Shown here one piece after another: positions 27,563 through 37,595 of a stretch of 64,000 nucleotides of DNA. The stretch lies in NCBI RefSeq assembly GCF_004348985.1, contig NZ_SMKW01000007.1, positions 62,001 through 126,000 on the forward strand, given 5' to 3'. Each line of letters starts with the position of its first letter. The stretch's first letter is position 1. The position numbers and the translations under genes were made by a program. The notes beneath the pieces were generated by a model, which made no database searches, was not told the DNA's origin, and worked only from the letters and a program-made list of their open reading frames with translations. The stretch comes from Saccharopolyspora elongata (GTDB taxonomy: Bacteria; Actinomycetota; Actinomycetes; Mycobacteriales; Pseudonocardiaceae).

Positions 27563-28132
27563 TCAGCTGGGTTCCAGGGGGAGCGAGCGCCCCAGGACCG
27601 CGAAGGGGCGCGGGTCGCCCGTGAAGCGGTAGTTGCGCAGGACGTCCGCGAAGCCCACCCGGCGGTACAGCTTCCAGGCGCGGGTCGGGCCTTCCGGCGT
27701 GGAGAGCAGGACCTTGCCGCCCTGCGCGCCGGAGAGCAGGCGGCGCAGGATCTCCTCGCCGAGGCCGCCGCCCTGGCTTCCCGGGTGCACGTGCAGCTCG
27801 GTGAGCTCGAAGTAGTCGTCCAGCCAGCTGTCGGCGTCGCCGCCGCTGCTCAGCAGCCCGCGGCGGACCTGCTCGTGCCACCACTGCCCGGGGGCGCCCA
27901 GATAGCCGTAGCCGATGCCGATGAGCTCGTCGTGGTCGCTGAACGCGCCGATGCAGCGCCAGCCCGCGCGCAGCATGTGCGCCGACCACATCGGGGCGCG
28001 CTGCTGGGCGGTCGTGGGCGGGTAGTTCATCGCGGTCACGTAGATCTGCAGGGCCTCGGGCAGCCGGGCCCGGAGCTGCTCCGTGGTCAGCTCGGTGATC
28101 CGGTCACAACGGGGGGATGGCGCGGCGGTCAC
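27563..28132 (-). CDS. GNAT-family N-acetyltransferase (Rv2170-like)
   Basis: The protein has 189 residues. The acetyl-CoA motif is seen as VHPGSQGGGLGEEILRRLL, preceded by the central strand with ELTELHV and followed by the C-terminal block LYRRVGFADVLRNYRF. The acceptor is not identifiable. It closes the run of genes syntenic with Rv2187-Rv2170. GTG 28132 is preceded by a -10-like box at leaderless spacing. Confidence 0.85.
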   Translation of the reverse strand: MTAAPSPRCDRITELTTEQLRARLPEALQIYVTAMNYPPTTAQQRAPMWSAHMLRAGWRCIGAFSDHDELIGIGYGYLGAPGQWWHEQVRRGLLSSGGDADSWLDDYFELTELHVHPGSQGGGLGEEILRRLLSGAQGGKVLLSTPEGPTRAWKLYRRVGFADVLRNYRFTGDPRPFAVLGRSLPLEPS

Positions 28133-28278: not shown

Positions 28279-28346
28279 TTGAGTCCGTCGGTGGTGCGCG
28301 CTAATCTGAAGATGTTCGAACGGAAGTTCGATGAACGTTTGTTCGA
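28279..28346 (+). promoter_or_regulatory. SOS promoter with two adjoining LexA boxes
   Basis: A -35 box TTGAGT (28279-28284), a 17-base spacer and a -10 box TAATCT (28302-28307) form a good promoter. Just downstream lies TCGAAC-GGAA-GTTCGA (28316-28331), a perfect match to the actinobacterial SOS box TCGAAC-N4-GTTCGA. Adjoining it is ATGAAC-GTTT-GTTCGA (28331-28346), with two mismatches in the left half. Both sit where bound LexA would block transcription start. The transcript would have a leader of about 135 bases before the HEPN gene. Confidence 0.8.
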
Positions 28347-28448
28347 ACATCGAGTCCGGCGGTGGGGTGGGGGAAGCACCCCGCCGCCGGACCTGCCGGC
28401 TCCCCACGGCAGGCGTGGACGGCTTCGTCGTGCAGAGGAGATACGCCG

Positions 28449-28895
28449 ATGTCTTTTTCCACTGACTTCTCGATTCCGGCTCCGCGGCATTCCGTGGAGA
28501 ACCACGAACCGACGCCCGAGGCGGACACGCCGGCCGGTTCCCTGTCGTTGCTGCTCGACGCCCGCAGCCGCCTGCACGAAGCGGAGGAGGCGGACCGGCC
28601 GAGCGAGCGGTACGTGGCCGCGCACGTGGCGGCGTTACGTGCCGCGACGGCGGTGGTGGTGGCGCGTTCCTGGCGGCGCGAGAACAGCCGCCCGGCCAGC
28701 GTGTGGACGATGCTGACCGCCGCCGCCCCCGAATTCCGGGAGTGGGCGGCCTACTTCGCGGCGCGCTCGGACCGGCGGGCCGCGGCGGAGGCGGGGGTGC
28801 CGACCATCACCAGGCTGGATGCCGACGGGCTGTTGGCGCGCAGCCGCGAATTCCTCGAAATCGTGGGCCGGAGCCTGCTGGGGGTGGCTCGATGA
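28449..28895 (+). CDS. SAV_6107-family HEPN-domain protein, SOS-regulated
   Basis: The protein has 148 residues. A polar N-terminal segment (1-30) is followed by a helical bundle with AGSLSLLLDARSRLHEAEEA, ERYVAAHVAALRAATAVVVA and a C-terminal helix pair, matching the SAV_6107-like HEPN family. An R-x4-H (R54, H59) is present; R-x4-6-H is the nuclease motif in HEPN toxins, but here it falls in the second helix, so activity is uncertain. GAGGAG lies 8 bases before ATG 28449. The upstream promoter has two LexA boxes. Its stop overlaps the next start as ATGA, so the two are one translation-coupled operon. Confidence 0.82.
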   Translation: MSFSTDFSIPAPRHSVENHEPTPEADTPAGSLSLLLDARSRLHEAEEADRPSERYVAAHVAALRAATAVVVARSWRRENSRPASVWTMLTAAAPEFREWAAYFAARSDRRAAAEAGVPTITRLDADGLLARSREFLEIVGRSLLGVAR

Positions 28896-29662
28896 ACGGA
28901 ACCGAACTGGGGCTCGACTACGGGCGGATGCTCGATCTGCTCGGCATCGAGGCGCAGCTGCTCACGGCGGCGACCCACGACGCGCACGTCGACGCGCCGG
29001 TGTGGGGCGCGTCCGGGCGGACCTTGGGGCAGACGATCCGGCACCTGGGCGATCTGTGCGAGGACACGCTGTCCTGGCTGGGCGCGACGGCGGCCGAACA
29101 GCGCTGGGATCTGCCGGATCGGCCCGCGCTGCGCGAGGTGACCAGCAGGTTCGCCGTTCGCCTTGCCGACCTGCTCGCCGAGTTCGGCTCCCGGCCGCCG
29201 CACGACCGGTGTCCGACGTGGTGGCCCGAGCAGCACACCGTGCGGTTCTGGCTGCGTCGAATGCTGCACGCCACGACGGTGCACCGGGTGGACGTGCAGG
29301 CCGCGGCGGGAGTGCTGCCGACGCCGATCGAGCCGGATGTGGCCACCGACGGCGTTGACGAGGTGCTGCGGCTTTGGTTCGGCTACCGGCTGCACGCGCT
29401 CGGCATCACCGCGACGCGGCCCTGTTCGGTCGGGGTGTACGTGGCCGACCGCAACTGGCTGGTCACCGCGGACCAGAACGGGGCCGCGGTGGTGAGTTCG
29501 GGGGACGTGTCGACCACGACGCCCGACGCGGTCGTCGGCGGTGATGCGCCCGCCGTCTACCTGTGGATGTGGGGCCGGCTGCCCGATCGAGCGGTGGAGA
29601 CCAGTGGCGATCTCGATGCGATCGCGCAGCTCTGGGGCCTGCTGCAACTCGCCACCCGCTGA
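28892..29662 (+). CDS. DinB/MDMPI-fold protein (maleylpyruvate isomerase N-terminal family)
   Basis: The protein has 256 residues. The first 150 form the four-helix DinB/YfiT-like bundle of mycothiol-dependent maleylpyruvate isomerases, and the rest matches the MDMPI C-terminal domain. Two of the three metal ligands fit (H51 in QTIRHLGD, H131 in HATTVHRVD). The Glu usually found four residues before the second His (E-x3-H) is Ala127. A classical isomerase activity is therefore doubtful; mycothiol-related transferase or a non-enzymatic role are alternatives. It is coupled to the SOS-regulated HEPN gene by ATGA overlap. Confidence 0.82.
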   Translation: MNGTELGLDYGRMLDLLGIEAQLLTAATHDAHVDAPVWGASGRTLGQTIRHLGDLCEDTLSWLGATAAEQRWDLPDRPALREVTSRFAVRLADLLAEFGSRPPHDRCPTWWPEQHTVRFWLRRMLHATTVHRVDVQAAAGVLPTPIEPDVATDGVDEVLRLWFGYRLHALGITATRPCSVGVYVADRNWLVTADQNGAAVVSSGDVSTTTPDAVVGGDAPAVYLWMWGRLPDRAVETSGDLDAIAQLWGLLQLATR

Positions 29663-29740: not shown

Positions 29741-32700
29741 TCAGGCGCGTAGCCGCAAACCCTTCGGCGTGGCGCGGAATCCTGCTTCGGTGAGCACGTC
29801 GGCCAGGCGGGATCCCCAAGCGCCCTCGCCGTCGGCGCGCTGCACTGCGAGCTGCTCCAACCAGCCGTCCCGGACAACGCGGGCCAACCCCGCCGCAGCG
29901 CTGCGCAACGCGGATTCGTCGTCGGTGAAGGACAACAACGACTTTCCGCCGCGCTCGACGTAGAACACCGCTTCGCCGGACACGAGGACCACGAGCGCTC
30001 CGGCCTTGCGCCCGGGCCGATGCCGGGTTTCGCCCATCACCGCAGGCCATTCCAGCGCGCCCCCGTAGGGCTGCGCCGGGTCGGCGGCCGCCAGCACCAC
30101 AGCCTCGTCGTCGCCATCCTCGCGGGACAGCGCGCGCAGGCGATCGATCGCGCCGGGCACCGCGAACTGCGCGGCCCCGAGCCCCTCGACGACGTATCCA
30201 CGCCTGCAGCGCCCGGATTCCTCCATCGCCCGAAGCACCTTGTACACGGCGGAAAATCCGCCCGTGACGCGCTCGATGTCCAGCGCTCCGCGCGTCAGCA
30301 CCCCGTGCCGTTCCAAGAACGCTTCGGCCCGCGCGTGCGCCCGTCGCGTCGGTTCGCTGGACGGCTGCGGCGCCAGCGACCAACGCCCCGACACCGTCGG
30401 CGGTCCGCTGCGGCTGGGCATCGAAGGCCGCCCCGCGCGCAACCTCGCGTAGCGGCCACGAGGCGCGCTGCGGCGCGGCTTGTGCGCTGCGCCGCGTCCG
30501 GACACCAACGCTCGCAACGGCGCCAGGGTGTCGTTCGTGACCGCGCCGGACCAGACCAGATCCCACAACGCCGAAGTGACCGCATCGTCGGCTGGCGCGC
30601 TCTCGCCCTGCTCCAGCAGCAGCGCCGCCGACCGATCCGCCAGCTGGCGGAAGAACAGCGCGCCACCGTCCAATGCGGACACAACAGCGCGGTGCAACGG
30701 GGAATCGGCGGTGGCCTCCTCCGGCAGGTCGGGCAACAGCAGGTCGGCGACATCGGTGGGCGCCAGCGCGATCCAGCCGTCGCCGCCGGCCAGCGAGCCC
30801 GAGCCGACCCAACTGACCTCGCCGGTCGCGGTCAGCTCGTCGAGCAGCGCGGGGGAATAGCCGGGCAGCCGGGCGGGCAGGATCAGCGACTCCAGGCCGC
30901 TCGCCGGAACCGGCGCGCCCGCGAGCTGTTCGACCACGGCGTACACGTCGTCGACCGTCGGCGCGCTGCGCAGCCGCGCCCCGATGCCGTGCCACGCGGG
31001 CAGGAAACGGCCCAGCGCGGCCGGTTCCACCGGCTCGACCTCGGCGCGCAGCCGGGCCAGCGACGCCCGGCGAAGCCGCCGCAGCACGTCGGCGTCGCAG
31101 TACTCCAGCACGCCGCCGCCACCGGCCTCCAGCGGCCGCAGCTCGCCGCGGACCAGCCGCCCGGTGCCGGTCAACCGGTACAGCACGCCGTGCACCACGG
31201 CCACGCCCAACCCGAATCGCTGCGCCGCGGCGTCGGCGGTGAACGGCCCGCGGCAGCGCGCGTAGCGGATCAGCAGGTTGCCCAGCGGGTCGGCGACAGG
31301 CTCGGTGAACGCCTCCGGCACGCCGACCGGTAGCGCGACGCCCAACGCATCGCGGACCTTGCCCGCGTCCTCGATCGCGATCCAGCGCTCGTCGCCCGCG
31401 ATGCGGACCCGCAGCACCCGGCGCTGTTCCGCCAGGTCCGCCAGCCACTCCGGACGCACGCCTCGTGCCTCGGCTTCGGCGGTGGACAGATCTCCCAGGA
31501 ACCGCAGCAGGTCCACCGCGGACTCGGCGTCGCGGGCTTGCCGATCCGGGGCGAGCCGCTGCAGCTGCTGCTCGATCTCGTCGAGCGCCTCGGGATCGAG
31601 CAGCTCCCGCATCGCCTCCGAACCGAGCAGCTCCGCCAGCAGCGTCGAATCCAGGCTCAACGCGGCCGATCGGCGCTCCGCCAGCGGCGCATCGGTCTCG
31701 TACAGGAACATGCCGATGTAGCCGAACAGCAGGCTGCGTGCGAACGGCGACGGCGTCGGCGTCTCGACCTCGACCACCCGCACCTTGCGCGCCGCGACCT
31801 GCGACATCAGCTCGGTCAGCCCGGGCAGGTCGTAGACGTCCTGAAGGCATTCCCGCATCGCTTCGAGCACGATCGGGAACTGCTCGTACTGCGCAGCCAC
31901 CGTCAGCAGCTGCGCGGCCCGTTGCCGCTGCTGCCACAACGGCGTGCGGCGACGCGGATCCCGGCGCGGCAGCAGCAGCGCCCGCGCCGCGCACTCCCGG
32001 AACCGGGCCGCGAACAGTGCCGAACCGCCGACCTCGTCGGTCACCACCTGCTGCACCTCATCCGGCGGCAGCAGGACGTCTTCGGCGGTCGGCAGGACCT
32101 CCGCGCCGGACTCGTCCAGCGCGTCGGCCAGCCGCAGCACGATCCCGTCGTCGGAGGAGGCCACCTGTGGCTCGATCCCGCGCCGCTCGCGGATCCGGGC
32201 GCCGATGGCCAGCGCCCACGGGCCGTTGACCTTGGCGCCGAACGGCGAGTGCACCACCATCCGCCAGTCGCCGAGCTCGTCGCGGAACCGCTCCACCACG
32301 ATCGTGCGGTCGTCCGGGACGTGCCGGGTCGCCTGACGCTGTTCGTCCAAATAGGACAGCAGGTTGTCGCGGGCCCACTCGTCCAGCCCGGCGGCCGTCA
32401 CACGGGACCGCGCCGCCTGGGTGTCCGCGCTGGTCAGCTCCCGGACGAAGGCGCCCAGCGCGCGCCCGAGCTCCAGCGGCCGCCCCGGCGAATCGCCCTT
32501 CCAGAACGGCATCCGGCCCGGCTCGCCCGGCGCGGGAACCACCACTACCCGGTCGTGGGTGATGTCCTCCACCCGCCACGCCGAGGTGCCCAGCAGGAAG
32601 GTGTCGCCCACCCGCGACTCGTAGACCATCTCCTCGTCGAGCTCGCCGACCCGCACCCCGCCCTTGCCCGCCTCGTCGGCGGGCGTGGTCACCACGAACA

Positions 32701-34309
32701 GGCCGCGGTCCGGGATCGTGCCGCCGGAGGTCACCGCGAGCCGCTGCGCACCCGGCCGCGCGCGCAGCTCGTCGTTCACCCGGTCCCAGACGATGCGAGC
32801 CCGCAGCTCGCCGAACTCCTCGCTGGGGTAGCGGCCCGCCAGCATGTCCAGCACCGCGTGCAGCGCCGAATCCGGCAGCCCCGCGTAGGGCGCGGCGCGC
32901 CGCAGCAGCGCCGCCAGCTGCGGCACCGGCCAGGTGTCCATCGCGACCATCGCCACGACGTGCTGGGCCAGCACGTCCAGCGGGTTGCGCGGGAACGACA
33001 GCGACTCGATCAGCCCGTCCGCCATCCGCTCGGACACCACGGCGCAGCCGACGAGATCGCCCCGGAACTTCGGGAACACCACGCCCCGCGACACCGCGCC
33101 GACCTGGTGCCCGCCGCGCCCGATGCGCTGCAGCCCGGATGCCACGCTCGGCGGCGTCTCCACTTGGATCACCAGGTCCACCGCGCCCATGTCGATGCCC
33201 AGCTCCAGCGACGAGGTGGCCACCACGCAGGCCAGCCGCCCGGACTTCAGCTCCTCCTCGACCACCGCCCGCTGTTCCTTCGACATCGAGCCGTGGTGCG
33301 CCTTCGCGACGATCGGCGGGGCGCCGCCGCCGATCCCGGAGCCGCCCACCGCCTCGGCGGGGAACCGCTCCAGGGGCACCGGCTCCTCGGCCGCGAGCTC
33401 GTTGATCCCGGCGGTGAGCCGCTCGGCCAGCCGCCGGGAATTGGTGAACACGATGGTCGAGCGGTGCTCGCGGATCAGCTCCAGGATCCGCTCCTGAACC
33501 GACGGCCAGATCGACGTGCGCTGCTCCGCGCCCGCCGCCGGGCCCTCGACCTCGCCGGTCGGCGCGCCCAGCTCGGCCATGTCCGGCACCGGCACCTCGA
33601 CCCGGACCTCGACCTGCTTGGCGTTCGCGGGCTGGATGGTGCGCACCGGCCGGCCGCCGGCCAGGAACGTCCGCACCTCCTCCACCGGGCGGACCGTCGC
33701 GGACAGCCCGATGCGCTGCGCCGGCTTCGGCAGCAGCTCGTCCAGCCGTTCCAGGGAAAGCGCCAGGTGCGCTCCGCGCTTGGTGGCGGCCACCGCGTGC
33801 ACCTCGTCGACGATCACCGTCTCGACGCCGCGCAGCGACTCCCGGGCCGCCGAGGTCAGCAGCAGGAACAGCGACTCGGGCGTGGTGACCAGCACGTCCG
33901 GCGGCGTGCGGGCGAACGAACGGCGTTGGTCGGCCGGGGTGTCCCCGGTGCGGATGCCGACCCGGATGTCCGGCGGGGCGCTGCCGAGGCGCTGCGCGGC
34001 CTGCCGGATCCCGGCCAGTGGCGCGCGCAGGTTCCGCTCCACGTCGACGACCAGCGCCTTCATCGGCGACACGTAGAGCACCCGGCAGCGCTGCTTCGCG
34101 TCGGCGGGCGTGCCTTCCGCGGCCAGCTTGTCCAGGGCGGAGAGGAACGCCGCGAGCGTCTTGCCGGAGCCGGTCGGCGCGACGACCAAGGCGTGCTCGC
34201 CCCCGGCGATCGCCTCCCACGCGCCGCGCTGTGCCTCGGTGGGCGCGGCGAAGGCCCCGCGGAACCAGTCGCGGGTCGCCGCGGAGAAGCCGTCCAGCAC
34301 ATCGCTCAC
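29741..34309 (-). CDS. lhr: Lhr-type ATP-dependent helicase, long form
   Basis: The protein has 1522 residues, the length of mycobacterial Lhr. Motif I APTGSGKT, DEVH as motif II (DEVHAVAATKRGAH), LSATVRP as motif III and the second RecA-fold motifs (IGRGGHQVG) occupy the first 450 residues. Lhr-core winged helix and DNA-binding modules follow, then the long C-terminal region of the Lhr family. Lhr translocates 3'-5' on single-stranded DNA and prefers RNA:DNA hybrids; its mycobacterial gene is induced by DNA damage. GTG 34309 or 34312 is the likely start; the frame runs open to 34903 through an unrelated promoter region. It is convergent with the SOS operon. Confidence 0.94.
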   Translation of the reverse strand: MSDVLDGFSAATRDWFRGAFAAPTEAQRGAWEAIAGGEHALVVAPTGSGKTLAAFLSALDKLAAEGTPADAKQRCRVLYVSPMKALVVDVERNLRAPLAGIRQAAQRLGSAPPDIRVGIRTGDTPADQRRSFARTPPDVLVTTPESLFLLLTSAARESLRGVETVIVDEVHAVAATKRGAHLALSLERLDELLPKPAQRIGLSATVRPVEEVRTFLAGGRPVRTIQPANAKQVEVRVEVPVPDMAELGAPTGEVEGPAAGAEQRTSIWPSVQERILELIREHRSTIVFTNSRRLAERLTAGINELAAEEPVPLERFPAEAVGGSGIGGGAPPIVAKAHHGSMSKEQRAVVEEELKSGRLACVVATSSLELGIDMGAVDLVIQVETPPSVASGLQRIGRGGHQVGAVSRGVVFPKFRGDLVGCAVVSERMADGLIESLSFPRNPLDVLAQHVVAMVAMDTWPVPQLAALLRRAAPYAGLPDSALHAVLDMLAGRYPSEEFGELRARIVWDRVNDELRARPGAQRLAVTSGGTIPDRGLFVVTTPADEAGKGGVRVGELDEEMVYESRVGDTFLLGTSAWRVEDITHDRVVVVPAPGEPGRMPFWKGDSPGRPLELGRALGAFVRELTSADTQAARSRVTAAGLDEWARDNLLSYLDEQRQATRHVPDDRTIVVERFRDELGDWRMVVHSPFGAKVNGPWALAIGARIRERRGIEPQVASSDDGIVLRLADALDESGAEVLPTAEDVLLPPDEVQQVVTDEVGGSALFAARFRECAARALLLPRRDPRRRTPLWQQRQRAAQLLTVAAQYEQFPIVLEAMRECLQDVYDLPGLTELMSQVAARKVRVVEVETPTPSPFARSLLFGYIGMFLYETDAPLAERRSAALSLDSTLLAELLGSEAMRELLDPEALDEIEQQLQRLAPDRQARDAESAVDLLRFLGDLSTAEAEARGVRPEWLADLAEQRRVLRVRIAGDERWIAIEDAGKVRDALGVALPVGVPEAFTEPVADPLGNLLIRYARCRGPFTADAAAQRFGLGVAVVHGVLYRLTGTGRLVRGELRPLEAGGGGVLEYCDADVLRRLRRASLARLRAEVEPVEPAALGRFLPAWHGIGARLRSAPTVDDVYAVVEQLAGAPVPASGLESLILPARLPGYSPALLDELTATGEVSWVGSGSLAGGDGWIALAPTDVADLLLPDLPEEATADSPLHRAVVSALDGGALFFRQLADRSAALLLEQGESAPADDAVTSALWDLVWSGAVTNDTLAPLRALVSGRGAAHKPRRSAPRGRYARLRAGRPSMPSRSGPPTVSGRWSLAPQPSSEPTRRAHARAEAFLERHGVLTRGALDIERVTGGFSAVYKVLRAMEESGRCRRGYVVEGLGAAQFAVPGAIDRLRALSREDGDDEAVVLAAADPAQPYGGALEWPAVMGETRHRPGRKAGALVVLVSGEAVFYVERGGKSLLSFTDDESALRSAAAGLARVVRDGWLEQLAVQRADGEGAWGSRLADVLTEAGFRATPKGLRLRA

Positions 34310-34481
34310 CACTACATGCTGGACCAACGCCCTGACACCGACACCCGCGACCGGCAGTGGCCGACCGTCCACAAGGGCCTGCCGGGATGTGATTCGGCAC
34401 GAATGCGGGGGATCGGTGCTTCCCGCCGCCGCTGACGTGGCAGCATTCGAGCCCGGAAGCTTCAGCGTGGGAGGGGGACGG

Positions 34482-36305
34482 GTGCGCGTCCTGTCAGTGG
34501 ATCTCGGCACCTCGAACACCGTCGCGGTCCTGTCCGCGCACGGTCGGCCGCCGCGGGTGGTCGAGGTCGACGGCTCTGCGACCATGCCGTCCGCGGTGTT
34601 CGCCACCGAGGACGGCGGGATCATCGTCGGCCGCGACGCCGAACGCCGCGCCCGGCTCGACCCGTCCCGGTTCGAGCCGAACCCGAAGCGCCGGGTCGAC
34701 GAGAGCACCCTGCTGCTCGGGGACAACGTCATCACCGTCACCGACGCGCTGGCCGCGGTGCTGCACCGGGTCGCCGAGGAGACCACCCGGCAGCTAGGCG
34801 GCGCCCAGCCCGACGAGGTCCGGCTTACCCACCCCGCGCAGTGGGGCACGGTCCGCCGCAACGTGCTGCTGTCCGCCGCCCGGTTGGCCGGTTTCACCTG
34901 CAACCTGGTGCTGATCCCGGAACCGGTGGCCGCGGCCGCGCACTTCGCGTCCTTCCCGGACCGCGCCCTCGGCGCCGGCCAGGCGCTCGCCGTCTACGAC
35001 CTGGGCGCGGGCACTTTCGACTGCGCGATCGTCGGCGCCACGCAGAACGGGTTCGCGGTGCTGGCCGAGGACGGCCTGGCCGACCTCGGCGGGTTGGACG
35101 TCGACCAGGCGCTGCTGGAGCACGTCGGGCGACAGGTCTCCAACAAGGACCCGCAGCGCTGGCAGCGGCTGCTGCGCCCGGAGAGCACCGGCGACCGGCG
35201 GGCCCAGCGTGCCCTGCGTGAAGACGTCCGCGCCGCGAAGGAAGCGCTCTCCCGGCACCCGCAGACCGAGGTGCCGATGCCGGAGCCCTTCGAGGACGTG
35301 CTGGTCACCCGCGCGGAGCTGGAAGCGCTGGTGCGGCCGAGCATGCTGCGCAGCGTCGAGCTGCTGGCCGCCGTGCTGCGCTCCAACGCGATGAACCCGG
35401 AGCACCTCGCCGGCGTGTACCTGGTGGGCGGTTCCAGCCGGTTGCCGCTGGTCGCCAGCCTGATCGGCGAACAACTGCGGATCGTGCCGACGACGCTCGA
35501 CCAGCCGGAGACGGCCGTCGCGCTCGGGGCGCACCACGTGTCCCGCGACGGTGCCGCGATGTGGACCCAGGACATCCGGTCCAGCCCGCAGTCGGGCCCG
35601 GTCGCCATCCCGCAGACCGGTCAGCCGCAGGCGCCGTACCGGGAGCCCGACACGGTCCGCACGTACCCCGTCGCGCCGCCCCAGCAGCAGCCCCACCCCC
35701 AGCCGCCCGCGGACGTGTCCCGGCGCAACCGCAACATGCTGATCGGCCTCGGCGCGGTCGCGGCCGTCGCGGTGATCGTCGCGGTCGTGGCGATCGTGTT
35801 CCGCGCCACCAACGGCTCCAGCGCGCCCAGCGCGGCGGACTGCTTCCAGCCCGGCACCGTCAACGCCGAGGGCTTCACCGCCTGCCTGGGCAACCTCGCC
35901 GGTACCGTTCCGGAGCACGCCAACTGCGCGCCGGGCTGGCAGCGGATCATGCCCGGCCTGCGGGAGCTCGACGGCACCGTGGTGTCCTGCTCGATCGGCA
36001 ATCCCAACGAGGGCACCCAGATCGTCTACACCCAGCTGGACACGATGGAGGCCGCGCAGCGGCGCGCCGACCTGCTGCTGGAGTTCAACGGCGTGACCAG
36101 CGACCAGGTCGAGGCGGACTGGAGCGGCAACGGCCTGACCGGCACCTACCGCGCGGTCACCAGCGACACCTTCGGCACCCTGGTGTTCACGGTCGACGAC
36201 CGCCCGCTGGTCGGCATGGTGCTCAAGCCCAACGGCGACAAGCAGCTCGACCCGAACAAGCTGGCCGACGAGTTCGAGAAGTCGGTCCAGCCGGGCACGG
36301 CCTGA
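34482..36305 (+). CDS. Membrane-anchored Hsp70-like ATPase with extracytoplasmic domain
   Basis: The protein has 607 residues. The N-terminal 350 residues are an actin-like Hsp70 nucleotide-binding domain: DLGTSNTVAVL (phosphate 1, D7), YDLGAGTFD at 172-180 (phosphate 2) and GGSSRLP at 316-322 (adenosine). No Hsp70 substrate-binding domain follows. Instead come a Pro/Gln-rich linker (about 365-415), one membrane helix (419-442) and a 165-residue exported domain with four Cys. The chaperone ATPase would thus sit inside and a sensor or binding domain outside. GTG 34482 follows a GGGAGGGGG ribosome site. The function is unknown. Confidence 0.85.
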   Translation: MRVLSVDLGTSNTVAVLSAHGRPPRVVEVDGSATMPSAVFATEDGGIIVGRDAERRARLDPSRFEPNPKRRVDESTLLLGDNVITVTDALAAVLHRVAEETTRQLGGAQPDEVRLTHPAQWGTVRRNVLLSAARLAGFTCNLVLIPEPVAAAAHFASFPDRALGAGQALAVYDLGAGTFDCAIVGATQNGFAVLAEDGLADLGGLDVDQALLEHVGRQVSNKDPQRWQRLLRPESTGDRRAQRALREDVRAAKEALSRHPQTEVPMPEPFEDVLVTRAELEALVRPSMLRSVELLAAVLRSNAMNPEHLAGVYLVGGSSRLPLVASLIGEQLRIVPTTLDQPETAVALGAHHVSRDGAAMWTQDIRSSPQSGPVAIPQTGQPQAPYREPDTVRTYPVAPPQQQPHPQPPADVSRRNRNMLIGLGAVAAVAVIVAVVAIVFRATNGSSAPSAADCFQPGTVNAEGFTACLGNLAGTVPEHANCAPGWQRIMPGLRELDGTVVSCSIGNPNEGTQIVYTQLDTMEAAQRRADLLLEFNGVTSDQVEADWSGNGLTGTYRAVTSDTFGTLVFTVDDRPLVGMVLKPNGDKQLDPNKLADEFEKSVQPGTA

Positions 36306-37568: not shown

Positions 37569-37595
37569 TTGATCGAACATCCGTTCGTCTAAGAT
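37569..37595 (+). promoter_or_regulatory. recA promoter with LexA box
   Basis: TCGAAC-ATCC-GTTCGT (37573-37588) matches the SOS box at 11 of 12 defined positions. It adjoins a -10 box TAAGAT (37590-37595), and TTGATC at 37569 may serve as -35. LexA bound here would cover the promoter. The leader to the recA ATG is about 110 bases. Confidence 0.8.

Follow-up and report, generated by a model that had tools for sequence, protein, structure and literature searches.

The window, meaning the whole stretch of 64,000 nt analysed here, comes from Saccharopolyspora elongata (GCF_004348985.1, contig NZ_SMKW01000007.1, positions 62,001-126,000), whose genome of 10.3 Mb is assembled in 277 contigs and whose family we take to be the Pseudonocardiaceae (code f1). 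It contains an operon of two genes, encoding a small HEPN_SAV_6107 protein and a protein of the MDMPI/DinB fold, the stop codon of the former overlapping the start codon of the latter in the sequence ATGA (Table 1). A preliminary description, made from the DNA letters, had placed this pair behind a promoter and two LexA-type boxes; all of these parts were located and the observation is confirmed. Between the operator and the HEPN start codon lies a structured leader, which is absent from that description and new here. On the other side of the operator, a relative of the divergent GNAT-type gene is present at 103 of 108 family loci and at the 30 Corynebacterium loci compared (30/30).

Table 1. 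Features of the HEPN-MDMPI operon and its surroundings (window coordinates).
Feature	Position	Strand	Basis
GNAT-type acetyltransferase gene, divergent from HEPN	27563..28132	-	
Sigma70-like promoter, TTGAGT-17-TAATCT	-35 28279..28284, -10 28302..28307	+	sequence
LexA (SOS) box 1, perfect TCGAAC-N4-GTTCGA = TCGAACGGAAGTTCGA	28316..28331		pattern scan and conservation
Second LexA-like box ATGAACGTTTGTTCGA, 2 mismatches, weaker	28331..28346		pattern scan
5' leader hairpin 1, 16 bp stem, loop GGGGAAG at 28370-28376	28354..28392	+	covariation, 78 leaders
5' leader hairpin 2, loop GCUCCCCA, complementary to loop 1 save one missing U here	28393..28412	+	
Shine-Dalgarno-like GAGGAG	28435..28440	+	sequence
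HEPN_SAV_6107 gene, 148 aa (P0002), without HEPN RNase motif	28449..28895	+	PF18726
MDMPI/DinB-fold gene, 256 aa (P0001), Ala127 for presumed-triad Glu	28892..29662	+	PF11716, PF07398, 99-orthologue alignment
Long ORF facing the gene pair, putative lhr (name from the preliminary description)	29741..34903	-	ORF list
recA LexA box, 1 mismatch, internal reference	37573..37588		recA start 37711 (named from sequence)

The PF18726 profile detects one copy each in 108 of the 120 family genomes, and all 108 loci were compared. Within 700 bp upstream of the HEPN domain, the best LexA box is perfect at 100 loci, carries one mismatch at 5 and is worse at 3; with a search span of 1200 bp, a box with at most one mismatch is found at 108/108. 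A reversed control pattern reaches at best two mismatches at these loci, in one case. In 98 of 105 relatives, the start of the box is preceded, at a distance of 13-16 bases, by the best sigma70-like -10 hexamer, directed towards HEPN, against 2/105 for hexamers facing away and 5/105 for a site 200 bp off, which identifies a directional operator-promoter unit. SOS control, as proposed in the preliminary description, is thereby favoured by comparison of the family loci (105/108 with at most one mismatch), and LexA would be expected to bind upstream of the HEPN operon and DNA damage to induce it. The tight repression attributed to a double operator fares less well: the second box does exist, but it departs from the consensus at two positions, and a second site with at most two mismatches within 80 bp of box 1 occurs in 23 of the 105 relatives. 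In the window's own genus, three of five genomes have a second box at +15.

TCGAAC-N4-GTTCGA is the LexA site of actinobacteria. The window harbors nine sites with at most two mismatches, where 2.5 are expected by chance, and the perfect box is present in three copies in the 10.3 Mb genome: at the HEPN operon, at the imuA'-imuB-dnaE2 locus, which is located on another contig, and in the gap separating a transaldolase gene from a phosphoglucose isomerase gene. This last location (L002, C209:29971-29986) is surprising, and chance is a possible explanation. Genome-wide, sites with at most one mismatch number 47 versus 16 for the reversed control pattern; isolated one-mismatch sites therefore carry little meaning and conservation weighs more. 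The recA gene, 9 kb downstream of the HEPN operon, has its own box, and lexA (also named from sequence) is located on the same contig, ~43 kb past the operon and outside the window, with three one-mismatch boxes next to it (L293 1479-1576, C240). The box of the HEPN operon is thus of the type used by the SOS genes of its own genome. Two of the lexA boxes adjoin each other, resembling the adjoining boxes of the HEPN operon, and a divergent LysM-like gene was seen there by eye.

The HEPN protein (P0002) scores 95.6 bits against PF18726 (E 2.8e-27, curated cut-off 27.2), which assigns it to the HEPN_SAV_6107 family. From an alignment of two sequences, AlphaFold2 predicts an all-helical structure with a disordered N-terminus (mean pLDDT of 79 for the best model, 54-76 for the other four). 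In a set of 203 HEPN sequences, in which some genomes are included twice, R64, W86, P94, E95, W99, F103, G116 and F135 each reach a conservation of 95% or more, counted over the letters present. An N-terminal F-P-like motif was dropped as a candidate signature: it is found in 39 of 107 sequences by a loose pattern and is thus not general. A sequence search of the PDB returned no significant relative of either the HEPN or the MDMPI protein (best E 0.1 and 0.18, respectively).

According to PMC3710099, RNases and toxins are numerous among HEPN proteins, and the ATGA overlap of the two genes would suit a system in which DNA damage induces HEPN as an RNase toxin, with the MDMPI protein serving as antitoxin or modifier. 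In HEPN RNases, helix 3 ends with the Rx4-6H motif (PMC3710099). At this position the motif is missing from the window protein, which has no His past residue 59. An R54-x4-H59 arrangement belongs to the second predicted helix, and residue 59 is a His in 106 and a Tyr in 92 of the 203 sequences. The same source lists SAV_6107 (HEPN-M), a member of the Pfam family PF18726 like the window protein, as motif-less; its SAV_6107 row gives no operon, architecture or RNase motif, to which the present analysis adds the SOS box, the polymerase linkage and the leader RNA. The active HEPN RNase considered in the preliminary description is hence unsupported, the motif being absent.

The distribution of the two genes bears on the same question. 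An MDMPI-type gene follows HEPN at 99 of the 108 family loci, in line with the conserved pairing anticipated in the preliminary description, and the HEPN stop codon is embedded in ATGA or GTGA at 75 of 107; L144, a locus with a half-length HEPN match, is counted in the 108 and the 99 and excluded from the HEPN alignment of 107 sequences. Nine genomes (four g5, four g42 and G062) have HEPN without MDMPI, and no close MDMPI copy is found anywhere in these nine (best E 7e-12). Among the 12 family genomes without a HEPN hit, a close MDMPI gene persists in seven, always downstream of a box with at most one mismatch (five perfect), and one of these seven shows an apparent HEPN remnant with an internal deletion; the remaining five possess remote MDMPI relatives or none. 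Over the 120 family genomes, both genes are found in 99, HEPN alone in 9, MDMPI alone in 7 and neither in 5. Either gene is thus dispensable to the other, and the survivor keeps the box. The existence of HEPN-only and MDMPI-only genomes makes an obligate toxin-antitoxin pair unlikely. A further hallmark, the obligate nucleotidyltransferase partner of MNT-HEPN toxin-antitoxin systems, is not seen here: the neighbour is MDMPI, missing at 9 of the 108 loci. With the RNase motif absent and the genes lost independently, the RNase and toxin-antitoxin readings were rejected, a toxin function being very improbable, and the earlier statement that this is not a known toxin-antitoxin pair stands. Judging from the length of the HEPN frame, no fusion of HEPN to a polymerase or to MDMPI is evident at 207 oriented loci, a set in which some genomes occur twice and from which eight badly framed loci are excluded.

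The MDMPI-type protein (P0001) is only slightly above the cut-offs of both of its Pfam domains (29.4 bits for MDMPI_N, cut-off 24.2; 31.2 bits for MDMPI_C, cut-off 29.5), and its 35.4 bits against NCBIfam TIGR03083 fall under the cut-off of 50. Residues 51, 127 and 131 are presumably the metal ligands of this protein. In the window they are H51, A127 and H131, and the presumed His-Glu-His triad is incomplete, while 76 of 99 orthologues have it complete. Residue 127 is a Glu in 85 orthologues, an Asp in 3 and an Ala in 11. The 11 Ala127 sequences are spread over four genera, the window's own plus g13, g14 and g46; Cys56-Glu57 replaces the usual pair in all 11, and H51 is lost as well in 3. Judging from the alignment, this co-change may reflect a rebuilt site or a single event in one clade. 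Outside the family, no LexA box with at most one mismatch was found at any of 26 loci with MDMPI relatives (26 loci out of 29 matches).

Thiol S-transferases and proteins induced by genotoxic stress are among the members of the DinB superfamily (PMC10693628). The MDMPI_N domain is shared with this DinB/YfiT/MDMPI superfamily, Bacillus dinB and the mycobacterial SiwR-controlled DinB genes, among which damage-inducible members are known; compared with those genes, as described in PMC10693628, the window operon has a LexA box, begins with HEPN and belongs to a clade that has lost the triad Glu. The MDMPI protein could therefore be imagined as an ordinary mycothiol-dependent metalloenzyme that conjugates or detoxifies electrophiles arising under damage stress and is the main effector of the operon, HEPN being a helper or a bystander. 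The thiol chemistry and stress induction of its superfamily, the intact triad of most orthologues and the SOS box retained by MDMPI in seven genomes without a HEPN hit all agree with such a role. The window's own clade fits it poorly, as Ala127 and Cys56-Glu57 are found in 11/11 sequences and H51 is missing from 3/11, and so does the sub-threshold TIGR03083 score; we regard this alternative as possible without considering it probable.

HEPN_SAV_6107 extends well beyond the family. In an order sample that includes family members, 197 of 249 genomes have PF18726; a phylum sample has it in 22 of 246 genomes, with 16 scoring over the cut-off. The analysis of its neighbours relies on 37 non-family loci with at least 4 kb downstream, spread over 15 families, among which f77 is over-represented (9/37). 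A box with at most one mismatch is present within 1.2 kb upstream at 32 of these 37 loci, and is perfect at 25. At 30/37, in 11 of the 15 families, a translesion polymerase gene lies within 5 kb downstream of HEPN on the same strand. The neighbour is of the DnaE2 type in f77 (8/9), f6, f7 and f72, the ImuA'-ImuB-DnaE2 set in f3, f68 and f75, and a methyltransferase followed by Pol IV in f65, f67, f70 and f71. As to the 7/37 loci without a same-strand polymerase, L223 has DnaE2 and ImuB on the strand opposite to HEPN, two f74 loci (L201, L230) have an NAD-dependent DNA ligase directly after a HEPN gene with a LexA box, and the last four (two from f2 and one each from f5 and f77) have no polymerase or ligase. 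The same polymerase queries give no match at the 108 family loci, within flanks of 1.5-3 kb. The preliminary description had called the response neither canonical repair nor a known toxin-antitoxin pair; the first half of this statement is unsupported, HEPN being upstream of translesion polymerase genes in 11 of 15 other families.

The polymerase next to HEPN is not the replicative one. In 8/8 genomes tested, the replicative DnaE (1408-1530 bits) is encoded away from HEPN, and the DnaE abutting HEPN in six of the eight is a second DnaE of 493-702 bits, the replicative enzyme scoring about twice as high or more. HEPN does not neighbour the second DnaE in the two f74 genomes. A DUF6504 gene is inserted between the box and HEPN at 10 of the 37 loci (tblastn); its product probably corresponds to the ImuB-C protein of PMC12926913, a paper that links DnaE2B to a standalone ImuB-C in Arthrobacter and Tessaracoccus. 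Relative to the ImuA'-ImuB-DnaE2 and DnaE2B-ImuB-C operons of that report, the loci described here have HEPN_SAV_6107 upstream, a LexA box and often DUF6504, in several families, whereas in the window's family HEPN stands apart from the polymerases and is paired with MDMPI. The word HEPN does not occur in the main text of PMC12926913.

The expectation that LexA boxes precede the orthologues is thus borne out for most loci, in the family (105/108) and elsewhere (32/37), but not for f5 and for g48 of f2: the best box has at least two mismatches at 7/7 f5 loci and at the four f2 g48 loci seen. No polymerase is located near HEPN at the long-flank loci of these two groups. In g47, HEPN is found in 0/4 genomes.

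Corynebacterium, which belongs to the same order as the source genome, has HEPN in 80 of 81 genomes. At the best 30 of the 80 loci by score, a GNAT gene is found upstream (30) and a DUF3040 gene downstream (30), with mraZ within reach at 21; the box before HEPN has at most two mismatches at 23 and at most one at 12 of these best 30, compared with 0/30 for the reversed control. In C. glutamicum, cg2381 is annotated as a 'conserved hypothetical protein' and reported as a gene of the LexA regulon (PMC5055667, citing Jochmann 2009). Ciprofloxacin raised its expression by log2 3.86, the same value as for recA, and mraZ is cg2378, three numbers away (PMC5055667). Gene order suggests that cg2381 is the HEPN_SAV_6107 gene; a LexA-regulon gene strongly induced by ciprofloxacin would then occupy the HEPN position of Corynebacterium, and SOS control of one presumed HEPN orthologue is already in print. 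The main text of a S. venezuelae LexA study (PMC9380542) does not contain the word HEPN. The HEPN-polymerase link, the pairing with MDMPI and the leader RNA were not found in the main texts of one open-access library, among the matches listed.

The diversity of these neighbourhoods invites another explanation, the strongest of the rivals, which we consider conceivable if on balance doubtful. HEPN and its neighbours might be a bundle of unrelated SOS genes sharing only a strong LexA promoter and no common pathway, the downstream genes varying by lineage since any damage gene profits from such a promoter. The variety of partners (MDMPI, DnaE2, ImuA'-ImuB-DnaE2, methyltransferase with Pol IV, DNA ligase) is what would be expected of such a bundle, as is the loss of HEPN and MDMPI each without the other. 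However, neighbours that synthesize or seal DNA are found at 32 of the 37 non-family loci, a bias that a random pool of SOS genes would presumably not show to this extent.

The octamer GGGGGAAG occurs between box and start codon in 85 of the 108 family leaders, with GGGGAAG in 11 more; on each strand, 4 of 3151 control windows taken from these loci contain it, and it is found once in the 64-kb window, at 28369. Alignment A3 comprises 78 octamer-containing leaders, after exclusion of two near duplicates from 80 distinct leaders. As these were picked for GGGGGAAG, the invariance of their loop is by construction, and 85/108 versus 4/3151 is the fair figure. Of the 14 pairs in the consensus stem of hairpin 1, 13 have changed on both sides among the 78 leaders. 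Double-change cells number 187, compared to 45.8 +/- 10.5 in shuffles and 7-44 in slid alignments, and 97.1% of the cells are paired versus 36-55% in the slid ones. The fold of the window leader has a z of -5.2.

A palindrome just downstream of an operator could also act as DNA, as an inverted repeat bound by a protein. Its position would suit this function; G-U pairs are common in the stems (one A3 pair has them in 33 of 78 rows, and in 19 of 39 rows they occupy one pair of A4, an alignment of 39 leaders chosen by eye for a second hairpin), and these fit RNA and would be mismatches in DNA, which renders the DNA reading improbable. As an RNA, the leader is captured by a covariance model, R1, that matches the window at 28347-28419 with 69.9 bits, the window leader being among the model's own sequences. 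The model also matches, with 41-78 bits, the leaders of 7/7 MDMPI loci from the genomes lacking a HEPN hit, all independent of the sequences from which it was built, and 10 of the 23 family loci (out of 108) that are without the octamer. The leader thus persists after the loss of HEPN, which is probably not its sole reader. At 20 other loci of the window's own genome, mostly LexA-like sites or SOS genes, R1 gives no match at E up to 0.1, and elsewhere in the window there is none either, a weak minus-strand match over hairpin 1 being a shadow. Outside the family, weak matches occur in 4 of 62 sources and fall, by coordinate reckoning, in HEPN leaders. A search of 12 loci against Rfam gave no match at E 0.5. 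A single sub-threshold match was seen on the opposite strand (14.5 bits vs 65.3, E 0.44), and the leader thus matches no Rfam family over threshold.

In hairpin 2, four of six pairs show double changes among the 39 leaders of A4. Its loop, CUUCCCC, is the exact complement of GGGGAAG in 29 of the 39, as read from A4, and the rest, window included, are one U short; CTT?CCCC follows the octamer in 45 of the 108 leaders. The pairing between loop 1 and loop 2 shows no covariation, for which reason a loop-loop contact is put forward as a proposal.

Taken together, these data lead to a joint reading that we hold with slightly better than even confidence: a LexA-repressed damage-tolerance operon with a non-catalytic HEPN adaptor, a protective MDMPI protein and control by the leader. 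RecA would trigger the self-cleavage of LexA, the operon would be derepressed and its single promoter would fire. The transcript would start with the structured leader, consisting of the GGGGAAG hairpin and, in some relatives, of a second hairpin with the loop CUUCCCC. For the release of LexA and the structured transcript, the comparative evidence is strong: operator, promoter geometry, gene pairing, leader hairpin 1 and, in other families, polymerase linkage are all documented at the sequence level. The leader may then add a second layer of control, after transcription. HEPN would be translated, followed by the MDMPI-type protein through translational coupling. The HEPN protein is envisaged as a catalytically dead helical adaptor that most likely aids the assembly of a translesion polymerase or its access to DNA. 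Since the polymerases lie elsewhere in the window's family, this adaptor role is transferred from what is seen in other families, and the adjacency of HEPN and polymerase genes indicates co-regulation at most, not contact. The MDMPI protein would be a separate damage-protection factor that, like other DinB-fold proteins, scavenges a compound of reactive or genotoxic nature.

In actinobacteria, ImuA', ImuB, DnaE2 and Pol IV are credited with damage-induced mutagenesis. Given its presence, once per genome, in 197/249 order-sample genomes, its strong LexA box and its vicinity to polymerases in many families, HEPN could be a missing player in this process. A more far-reaching version, which we advance only tentatively, holds that HEPN_SAV_6107 is an unrecognised non-catalytic subunit of the translesion-synthesis machines of actinobacteria, that a new kind of leader, with two hairpins whose loops are complementary, supplements LexA control by gating at the RNA level, and that the polymerase partner was swapped for a DinB-fold protein in the window's family. 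Conservation of an RNA leader on a transcript of the SOS response would imply that LexA release is followed by further tuning of this branch.

The leaders of other families were inspected by eye. GGGAAG-type loops appear in some f2 leaders, and nothing clear is seen in most. In four f77 leaders (L191, L211, L212 and L214), CUUCCCC is located upstream of GGGGAG-type possible ribosome-binding sites, which it may sequester.
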